Origin: a virus
Virus record (IMG/VR): IMGVR_UViG_3300032236_000968
Coordinates: 1 to 39,851 of that record
DNA: 39,851 bases
Direction: 5' to 3' (one strand)
Shown here one piece after another: positions 12,501-18,090 of the stretch (position 1 is the first letter of the stretch; the number at the start of each line of letters is the position of its first letter). A program made the position numbers and the translations under genes. Under the pieces are notes generated by a model. That model was not told the origin of the DNA, ran no database searches, and worked only from the letters and a program-made list of their open reading frames with translations.

Positions 12501-12880
12501 GCTCCAGTGAATCCAATAGCTGTGTAATAGATTGTAGCACCTGTAGTGACGCACTGAATGTTAAGTGCATTACCTGCCGTAGTCTTTAAAGGGTTAGTAA
12601 AGTTAAACACTAATGGAAAGCCTACCCCAGCAGCCGTAACATTATCTGCAAAGAATGTAGCAATCACTGTAGAGCCGTCTAAGATGTTAACTAACGTAGC
12701 AGTATTAGCACTGTTATTGTACAGATAAAGATCGGTTAGATAGTTACGTAGCTTCACTGTATTGCCGTTATAATCGGTAGATGTCTGAGCAGCATTAAGC
12801 GTAGTAGAAGCTGTTGTGCTTAAGGCTGTGTCGCCGTTAGTGGACGACCATGTATATCTGGGGGATGAATAAGTGCTCAT
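12497..12880 (-). CDS. Small virion-type beta protein
   Basis: A 127-residue Thr/Asn/Ala-rich protein with a strand pattern typical of phage tail-tip or head-fibre sandwich domains (LYLYNNSANTATLVNILDG, then TTGATIYYTAIGFTGA at the C-terminus). It resembles in style the protein at 33085-33480. It has no signal peptide, unlike the gene upstream. It is coupled to both neighbours by ATGA overlaps. Probably a structural or receptor-binding accessory, but unproven. Confidence 0.6.
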   Translation of the reverse strand: MSTYSSPRYTWSSTNGDTALSTTASTTLNAAQTSTDYNGNTVKLRNYLTDLYLYNNSANTATLVNILDGSTVIATFFADNVTAAGVGFPLVFNFTNPLKTTAGNALNIQCVTTGATIYYTAIGFTGA

Positions 12881-13269
12881 TGTGAATTATTAGTTGTTAG
12901 AATAGAAATGTTATTACTCGTTACGGCTGGCGTTGCAACGGCATTATTCGTTGTGAACGTAACAGGCGTAGGATCTTGCAGGGTGAACAACGCTGGAGCT
13001 TGTGCTACGTTGGTTGTTACCTCGGGCAAAGGAGCTGTAAACGTGTTAGTTGTAGAGTCGTAATGCCAGCCCATGCCTGCGTTGCCTGCTGGTACGCATC
13101 TAACGGCATCAGGATATACACTAGATGTAAACGTAGGCATCTGACTACCTACGTCTTGATTAGCTACTAATACGGCTATTACTGTGCCATTACTATTGAT
13201 TAACGCCCAGTTAGACATTGTATCACCAAACGCCGTAACCGCTAAAAATAGAAACAATAGGATTTTCAT
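12877..13269 (-). CDS. Exported virion-type protein with signal peptide
   Basis: A 130-residue protein. The first 15-16 residues, MKILLFLFLAVTAFGD, look like a Sec signal peptide cleaved near Gly15. The mature part contains NWALINSNGTVIAVLV and a motif GMGWHYDSTTNTFTAP, a pattern I associate with phage tail-fibre accessory proteins. The start overlaps the adhesin stop by one base (TAATG). A signal peptide on such a protein is unexpected for cytoplasmic virion assembly. Confidence 0.6.
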   Translation of the reverse strand: MKILLFLFLAVTAFGDTMSNWALINSNGTVIAVLVANQDVGSQMPTFTSSVYPDAVRCVPAGNAGMGWHYDSTTNTFTAPLPEVTTNVAQAPALFTLQDPTPVTFTTNNAVATPAVTSNNISILTTNNSQ

Positions 13270-17200: not shown

Positions 17201-18090
17201 TTAATACTACCACCTTCTATAAAGTTATAGATGGTGTCTCCGTTAGCAGATGCAGTCATAATAGGTGAGTGTCTTTCAGCCTTTAAAGCACCACTAGATG
17301 CCGTGGCTGTTGGTTGAAAATTAACTGGTGCATTAGAAGCTGAACTTGTGCCTATACCAAGACCTGCAAATTGAGGAGTAGCTGTTGTATCAATATTTTG
17401 TGGAGTAGAAAGAGTAACTGCATTGTTTGTGGTTACTGCTATAACTTGATTAGTTGTACCGCTAACAGATTGAATACCGCTACCGCCACTACCACCGCTA
17501 ACTGGATAAAATGCTACATTACCATTAGCATCAAATCCCACTAGATTTCCCGATCTAGCATTTTTAGTCATTAATAACTTAGGTGGTATTGCATTAGCCG
17601 TTTCGTAAGTTTCTACATGTAAACTTGCCATACCATTGTTAACAGTCATCTGAGCCAATGTAGCCTGCTTGTCTAATGCCTGCTCAATCATGGCTGCCGT
17701 TAAATAGCCACCATTAGCAAATACCGTAAGCTGATTAGCTGGCACATTACGTACAACGTAAAGGTTATCACCTGTGATCGGTGAATTAGGACCAGTGTTA
17801 GTAAGCGTAAAGTTACCCACCTGCATCTGGTTAGCAGAATTATAACCGCCACCTGTTACCACATAATCGACACCTAGCTTCAATACTGTAGCTGGTGTAC
17901 GGACTGCTCCTGGTTGTCCTGCATTAACAATTAACAAGTCACTAGCTTGTTGAAAAGCTATACCAGTGGTTAGTGTAGCAGTAAACGATGCAGGGATCTG
18001 TGGACCGTATACGTCCGTAGTTGGTGTTATAGTAGCATTAAGACGCACTATAAGTAATACCAAGATAAATAGGTAACGAAAAACTTTCAT
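14218..18090 (-). CDS. Large repeat-rich tail fibre with T7-type N-terminus and signal peptide
   Basis: A 1290-residue fibre. Residues 1-19 (MKVFRYLFILVLLIVRLNA) look like a Sec signal. Residues about 20-165 match the T7 gp17-type tail-binding N-terminus, ending LYVVRNVPANQLTVFANGG and then the helix AAMIEQALDKQATLAQ. Four roughly 100-residue repeats follow, each reading QPxxTAS...AANGD.IY...GGT...LY...NKYGIYQAGT, joined by Gly/Ser/Thr linkers. The C-terminal 110 residues form a compact beta domain (DWSQGNSFYKTLSANTTFTF). It probably attaches to the tail nozzle and reaches host receptors. The apparent signal peptide is unusual for a virion fibre. Confidence 0.85.
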   Translation of the reverse strand: MKVFRYLFILVLLIVRLNATITPTTDVYGPQIPASFTATLTTGIAFQQASDLLIVNAGQPGAVRTPATVLKLGVDYVVTGGGYNSANQMQVGNFTLTNTGPNSPITGDNLYVVRNVPANQLTVFANGGYLTAAMIEQALDKQATLAQMTVNNGMASLHVETYETANAIPPKLLMTKNARSGNLVGFDANGNVAFYPVSGGSGGSGIQSVSGTTNQVIAVTTNNAVTLSTPQNIDTTATPQFAGLGIGTSSASNAPVNFQPTATASSGALKAERHSPIMTASANGDTIYNFIEGGSINGGSYTGLNYYGITIGQPTLASGTLSNSYALYFNTGPAATNKYGLYQSGTDKNVLNNLTLAAGGGGGITFADGTVQTTAGGGSSGVTQIVAGTGIAITPTGGTGIVTINATGTAGVTTATGTANQVLVNSTSGSAQTGAITLTTPQNIDTAANVQFGTLGIGTAVGAGNGVNLQPTVTASAGQSKGLRISPSITQAANGDVIYDEILGGTINSNSFTSGSIYELTLGSPTVTGSFTNGYQLYLSGLSSGTFTNKYGIYQAGTEPNVFSGSLQVPSLTIGSLSGLLKATSGSVSTASSGIDYAPATSGTSILYGNGSGGFSNVTVSTGLSFSGGVLTATGGTGTVTSVSGTGTVNGITLTGTVTTSGSLTLGGTLSGVSLTSQVSGTLPVANGGTGVTTSTGSGSTVLSASPTFTGTVTTNGISNTNDLTTTTLEVGTTATAGVGVSLQPSVTSSAGNAKGVRTTPALTAAANSDSLYSNIFGGTVTNASYTGVNYYELALGAPTVSGSYTNGYQLYLSGLSSGTFSNKYGIYQAGTEPNVFGGAVTVPNFTATGTTTLATSLTGYLSASSGIVSASSTIPTSALSGQVSVSNGGTGASTLTGYVYGNGTSAMTASTSIPTSALSGTINLGTQVTGTLSASNGGSGVAGTITGYVYANGTSAHTASTTIPTSALSGTISNAQLANSSVTVTAGTGLGGGGAVSLGSSVTLTNAGVTSLTGTSNQVNVSASTGGVTLSTPQSIATSSSPQFNSLGIGVAASGTAGDLYANTTFEVGTPLAAGVGVNFQPSVTASSNLAKGFRLSPALTAAANSDSIYTQIVGGTVTNSSYSGVGYQELALGSPTISGTFATAYQLYLSGFSSGTLTSKYGIYQAGTEQNYFAGALNVASGSRGATNQNLTPATTTISSTTIDWSQGNSFYKTLSANTTFTFSNAVDGQVITICLLNTTSNYTVTWPSMKWAGGTAPTMTTGAHYDVYTIYYNATVGAYFGSYVQNF
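14560..17330 (-). repeat. Four ~100-residue repeats within the fibre gene
   Basis: Copies lie at about 17325-17030, 16690-16390, 15870-15570 and 14860-14560 and share the pattern QPxVTAS, AANxDxIY, GGT, LYxxGLSSGT and NKYGIYQAGT. Copies two and three are most alike. The DNA diverges at third positions, so the duplications are not recent. They form a shaft built of repeated beta units. Confidence 0.8.

Follow-up and report, generated by a model that had tools for sequence, protein, structure and literature searches.

It is taught that tailed phages assemble wholly in the cytoplasm, and the question raised by the locus described here is why three consecutive fibre-type genes of a podovirus should start with apparent Sec signal peptides. 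The locus lies in a 39,851-base IMG/VR record (IMGVR_UViG_3300032236_000968), which was analysed over its whole length and is referred to below as the window; its recognised genes include those of a portal-type adaptor, the capsid and the tail. The phage is uncultured, the window lineage is known from sequence alone, and the contigs of its relatives include fragmentary ones.

The late genes on the minus strand end with an ATP-grasp-like gene, the gene of a 1290-residue main tail fibre (14218-18090), that of a glycine-rich, adhesin-like protein of 321 residues (13269-14234), those of a 130-residue accessory protein (12877-13269) and a 127-residue protein without a signal (12497-12880), and a presumed lysis block. 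The fibre gene follows the genes of the tail and ejection proteins and precedes the lysis genes, as expected of a podovirus fibre, and its product comprises a signal peptide, a tail-docking domain, a repeat shaft and a C-terminal domain. The glycine-rich protein contains a Pfam Gly_rich_2 domain (13377-14111, E 5e-18). Further along the same strand are a small protein that may be a holin, with a single hydrophobic segment and an uncertain start (12261-12554), an outer-spanin-like lipoprotein with an LSGC lipobox (11987-12301; phrog_1275, Rz-like spanin, E 2e-4), and, in the presumed lysis block, a class 3 lipase without a signal (11191-11868; Pfam Lipase_3, E 2.5e-23). The lipoprotein points to a host with an outer membrane.

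The original prediction that three fibre-type proteins in a row start with Sec-type signals was confirmed, in that n-, h- and c-regions were recognised in the fibre (residues 1-19, 18034-18090; MKVFRYLFILVLLIVRLNA/TITP, predicted cleavage A19/T20), the glycine-rich protein (residues 1-23, 14166-14234; MFKISNWFKLILCTVLSSGVATA/GNFG) and the accessory protein (residues 1-15, 13225-13269; MKILLFLFLAVTAFG/DTMS). The rule-based test found small residues at -3 and -1 in each, where the fibre has L at -3, which is allowed and less usual than A or V. As judged from these features, the N-termini of all three window proteins would be textbook Sec signal peptides.

The start codons bear directly on this assignment. 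An open reading frame of 342 residues for the glycine-rich protein, from GTG 14297, was rejected, as it would start inside the fibre gene and has no signal from there; the real start is ATG 14234, which overlaps the fibre stop, and both start and signal are kept in the relative L007 (MFKISDWFKLIVCTVLSSGVA, 19/21 identical). For the accessory gene, start and preceding stop overlap as TAATG. Residues 18-81 of its product match positions 2-58 of the PHROG profile phrog_14370 (E 3e-4), so that, by the same logic as in the fibre, the signal immediately precedes the point where a small phage protein family begins. Syntenic homologues of the accessory gene were looked for and none were found; the evidence for its signal is therefore its own sequence together with the TAATG overlap.

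Signals were called with a home-made rule-based test, which gave low-scoring false positives on Bcep22-type fibres (7.8-10.9, all below 11), and the three window genes scored 12.8-15.3. Among 49 non-overlapping window ORFs the test was passed by four, namely the three fibre-type genes and the spanin-like lipoprotein. For control genomes with annotated starts, one of 48 genes passed in BPP-1, a lipoprotein, and one of 49 in the unrelated phage 121Q, and for neighbours of the related gene family described below the count was 4/196, two of the four being fibre genes. Published Phobius counts in two Polaribacter phages are 1/82 and 0/86 genes (PMC4615864). When residues 2-30 were shuffled, the observed scores were reached by only 1, 14 and 5 of 5000 shuffles (0.02-0.3%). 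Chance as the origin of the signals was rejected by the control genomes and the shuffles, and the original view that three in a row is not chance is borne out further by two relatives, L088 and L106, in which three consecutive signal-bearing genes are likewise led by a docking fibre.

The fibre was also predicted to have a T7 gp17-type N-terminus, and structure matches to 8ck1, 7ey9 and 7boz agree with this. In the AlphaFold model of residues 1-197, a low-confidence N-terminal helix precedes a better-modelled beta domain with a core pLDDT of about 85, and the best structure matches are podovirus fibre N-termini seated on tails, those of Carin 1 (8ck1), T7 gp17, Kp9 and LME-1. Chain 8ck1_B of Carin 1 matches with Z 10.1, placing model residue 21 on chain residue 3, and the T7 gp17 chains match with Z 8-9 over fibre residues 21-177; the Carin 1 fibre was also found by profile (E 6e-32). 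The docking domain was accordingly assigned to residues 20-156 (17623-18033, minus strand).

The T7 gp17, Carin 1, epsilon15, BPP-1 Bbp9 and BcepC6B gp18 fibres share this N-terminal docking domain, its fold and its late-operon place with the window fibre, whereas they begin with the domain at Met1 and the window fibre has a predicted cleavable signal instead. In the signal-less epsilon15 gp20, BPP-1 Bbp9, BcepC6B gp18, Skadi, HTVC100P (pelagiphages among them), L001 and L110, the domain starts at Met1. The ungapped alignment sets ...RLNA/TITPTTDVYGP of the window against M/TISSTIRKAGP (L063) and M/SVQSTDRVAGP (BPP-1), the cleavage-site Ala aligns with Met1 of the signal-less homologues in 7/7, and the structural matches give the same offset, 18-19 residues. 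The signal thus ends exactly at the Met1 position, so that cleavage would leave the N-terminus that Met removal leaves elsewhere. Since the docking domain is not at the very N-terminus of the primary product, where a 19-residue signal precedes it, we file the window fibre as a variant of the T7 gp17-type docking fibre rather than a standard member, one whose N-terminus would be canonical after the predicted cleavage.

Among GC-rich relatives, the docking domain is 51-70% identical, compared with about 25-30% for most of the rest of the fibre; in the comparison of the window with L007, similarity is higher still over the last 90 residues (90%). No record yielded more than one copy of the docking domain, an argument tempered by several contigs being fragments, by a possible second canonical fibre, and by a cut-off ORF at the window end. 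This second, tailspike-like ORF (38246-39850) has fibre repeats and runs off the end of the record, and its missing N-terminus could hold another docking domain or signal.

Whether relatives keep the hydrophobic N-terminus had been named beforehand as a test that could refute the prediction, and they do keep it. Repeated scans for fibre relatives yielded six further homologues with a signal (L005, L007, L013, L088, L106 and L107), 41-58% identical in their best segments, giving seven distinct signal-bearing fibres with the window. In a docking-domain tree of 35 sequences the seven form one side of one branch, whose support is modest (94/40), and a single change of signal state is found in 92% of the bootstrap trees; the nearest outsider is L110, a docking protein without a signal. 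Within the clade the letters of the signal drift and the pattern stays, with Ala before the predicted cut in 7/7. A search of bacterial genomes for fibre relatives, made with the window N-terminus, yielded no hits. The fibres of BcepIL02, which are of the Bcep22 type and belong to a relative of JC1, a phage with virion mass spectrometry, showed no convincing signal, and the JC1 data have no bearing on fibre export. The fibres of L005 and L007 have, within residues 15-18, a Cys immediately ahead of the cleavage site (QAC); this weak lipobox-like variant is not present in the window.

Besides these full trios, the module recurs in shorter or rearranged form. Two consecutive signal genes are present in L013 and in L107, which is cut by the contig end and whose second gene encodes a relative of the window glycine-rich protein (82/147 identical). 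In L110 the fibre is split into a 248-residue docking protein without a signal and a second protein with its own signal, the two together corresponding to the L106 fibre. The second protein aligns with the distal part of that fibre, residues 180-646 (167/345 identical), so that the signal goes with the distal, receptor-facing part. The distant relative L123 has a short docking protein without a signal followed by three signal-bearing genes in a row (L123:6911-8880), and in BcepC6B, L114, L124 and L001 a docking fibre without a signal is followed by a gene with one. Against isolates, the second gene of L110 matches only in about its last 48 residues, mostly to cyanophages, and tblastn searches of isolate phages with window genes 2 and 3, L001 10293-11630 and L106 gene 3 gave no matches.

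Signals are also found in a family typified by BcepC6B gp19 and PBR31_00035 of a Xanthomonas phage, in which a signal is followed by ATLNPIQLLNPAGSTSGQAI. As in the window trio, a signal peptide is combined with fibre-like repeats, and the gene is flanked in BcepC6B and PBR31 by the fibre or tailspike gene on one side and by lysis genes on the other; adjacency to lysis genes is shared by the window module and both phages. Unlike the window fibre module, the family has no docking domain and a different mature sequence, and the mature N-terminus ATLxPIQLLNPAGSTSGQAI is absent from the three window proteins. The window proteins thus resemble this family by having a signal and are not members of it. 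A signal was present in 65/65 gp19-type loci examined, a count to be read with the facts that one of the two scan patterns contained cleavage-region residues and so favoured a conserved junction, as the other did not, and that, where a locus had several in-frame starts, the one with the best signal was in some cases chosen. Prophage copies occur in Burkholderiaceae genomes. The original expectation that fibres normally have no signal holds for the main docking fibre, but a signal-bearing fibre-type family is widespread, in a related position, and found in sequenced isolates.

Cysteine-containing mature gp19-type proteins have an even number of cysteines in 37/43, compared with 57/140 signal-less neighbours, and the cysteines are often paired near residues 66 and 83. 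Such parity is typical of disulfide-bonded periplasmic proteins, although the rows are related, are not independent counts, and a p-value could not be read as a fair probability. The mature window proteins contain 1, 0 and 1 cysteines. A need for disulfides in the window proteins was rejected since these are too few, and the disulfide argument therefore rests on the sister family.

We consider it rather probable, on the sequence evidence, that the three genes form a fibre module and that the host Sec system exports its products, which join the virion at lysis. Before lysis, each of the three proteins would be made with a cleavable signal peptide, cross the inner membrane, lose the signal and fold in the periplasm. 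Once cleaved, the main fibre would have the same N-terminus as other podovirus fibres that have lost Met1, so its docking domain could still plug into the tail. Rupture of the envelope by the lysis proteins would bring the periplasmic fibres together with virions built in the cytoplasm, and docking would take place at that point. Tail proteins can dock to finished particles outside the cell, for example in P22.

Sec export of the window proteins is well supported by sequence, in the signals, their conservation, their exact placement and the retention of the docking domain; actual export, cleavage, periplasmic folding and docking at lysis are what we infer, the late docking from the logic of the compartments. 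The wider proposition, that some tailed phages build receptor-binding fibres beyond the inner membrane, by Sec export, periplasmic folding and attachment at lysis to virions built in the cytoplasm, the canonical docking N-terminus being restored by signal cleavage, appears to us evenly balanced. Of the three roles first proposed for the signals, periplasmic assembly fits best, membrane anchoring is conceivable as a transient state only, and receptor masking fits poorly.

The proteins might instead be exported without becoming part of the virion, coating the host surface or being released, and serve to mask receptors, to prevent superinfection or as free adhesins. Besides the signals themselves, the gp19-type genes are consistent with such a role, since several have a lysis-region gene rather than a fibre gene upstream, away from the fibre as accessory genes are, so that not every member of that family need be a virion part. 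However, the main fibre keeps its docking domain as its best-conserved part and as the only copy per record, and a decoy needs no docking domain; moreover, Pfam and PHROG comparisons of the window proteins revealed no domain for outer-membrane secretion, and nothing in the sequence points to passage through the outer membrane. We regard this alternative as unlikely, with some chance of being correct.

A slimmer chance is given to the possibility that the hydrophobic N-termini stay on the virion proteins, for example anchoring the fibres to the tail or touching the membrane during infection. AlphaFold does draw the stretch as a helix ahead of the docking domain, although at low confidence, and solved tails hold the docking domain without such a helix. 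Three mature proteins that are unrelated share the signal alone, with its positive n-region, hydrophobic core and small residues at -3 and -1, and its sequence drifts while these features stay. That unrelated proteins share a standard signal, and that the cut leaves a canonical N-terminus, makes an uncleaved anchor the weaker reading, as does the cysteine parity in the sister family.

Export followed by a mixed fate, for folding or membrane-side assembly, for example with anchoring in the inner membrane and release by a self-cleaving chaperone domain, is improbable. Its basis is the signal-bearing fibre of one relative (L088:7001-8788), where a Peptidase_S74 self-cleaving chaperone domain is followed at the C-terminus by a hydrophobic segment (residues 567-590) and then a short tail of basic character. 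Since this segment has positive charges before and after it, its topology is ambiguous, and nothing like it is present in the window proteins. This C-terminal layout recalls membrane-bound MYRF proteins. As proof of translocation the segment was dropped because of the charges on both sides.

Finally, an annotation artefact, with real starts downstream, untranslated hydrophobic stretches or a chance match, is largely refuted and very improbable, for although the genes have no Shine-Dalgarno sites, so that their starts rest on conservation, and the window fibre signal contains in-frame TTG and GTG codons, a wrong start codon was rejected by codon inspection of four homologues, L005 offers no further ATG, GTG or TTG after its first ATG until the docking domain is reached, the starts of genes 2 and 3 overlap the preceding stop (that of gene 2 being kept in L007), and a signal is seen in each of the seven fibre homologues and throughout the gp19-type loci.

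Known systems offer partial parallels to the proposed export of the fibre module. The Gly-rich adhesins of the T-even gp38 type are tip proteins encoded beside the fibre, without a signal peptide; the window glycine-rich protein, likened to them by description, is also glycine-rich and next to the fibre gene, and differs in having a signal. Filamentous phages have structural coat proteins with cleavable signal peptides, as in the window, and assemble in the membrane without lysis, whereas the window phage is tailed and has a lysis block. Tail fibres with signal peptides, or such an export route, were not found described in the open-access literature, nor was export of the gp19-type proteins found discussed in the open-access papers on these phages; the PBR31 paper mentions a signal peptide only on its esterase.

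If the proposal is correct, receptor-binding parts would come from a different compartment and be the last to be added to the virion. This would bear on fibre folding (disulfides, periplasmic chaperones), on what keeps virions from sticking to their own host ahead of lysis, and on the best way of expressing fibres in the laboratory. Direct testing is possible, since BcepC6B and PBR31 are isolates that encode a signal-bearing fibre-type protein. For annotation, the locus is a warning against trusting start-site calls or the assumption that a fibre lacks a signal, as either can mislead.

Several observations concern the surroundings of the module. A Shine-Dalgarno-like site precedes an early ATG in only 5/37 window genes and is absent from the signal-bearing genes of L088, L106, L107 and L110; the host may come from a group that rarely uses such sites. 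A gene similar to the class 3 lipase is in a comparable place in L009 (16582-17292), and apparently also in L001 and L041. The 523-residue gene directly before the fibre (18108-19679) is 83-84% identical in L005-L007, and a similar gene lies upstream of the L013 fibre. It has no Pfam match and a weak, sub-cutoff match to purD (ATP-grasp type), and an ATP-grasp-like enzyme inside a structural operon is odd.
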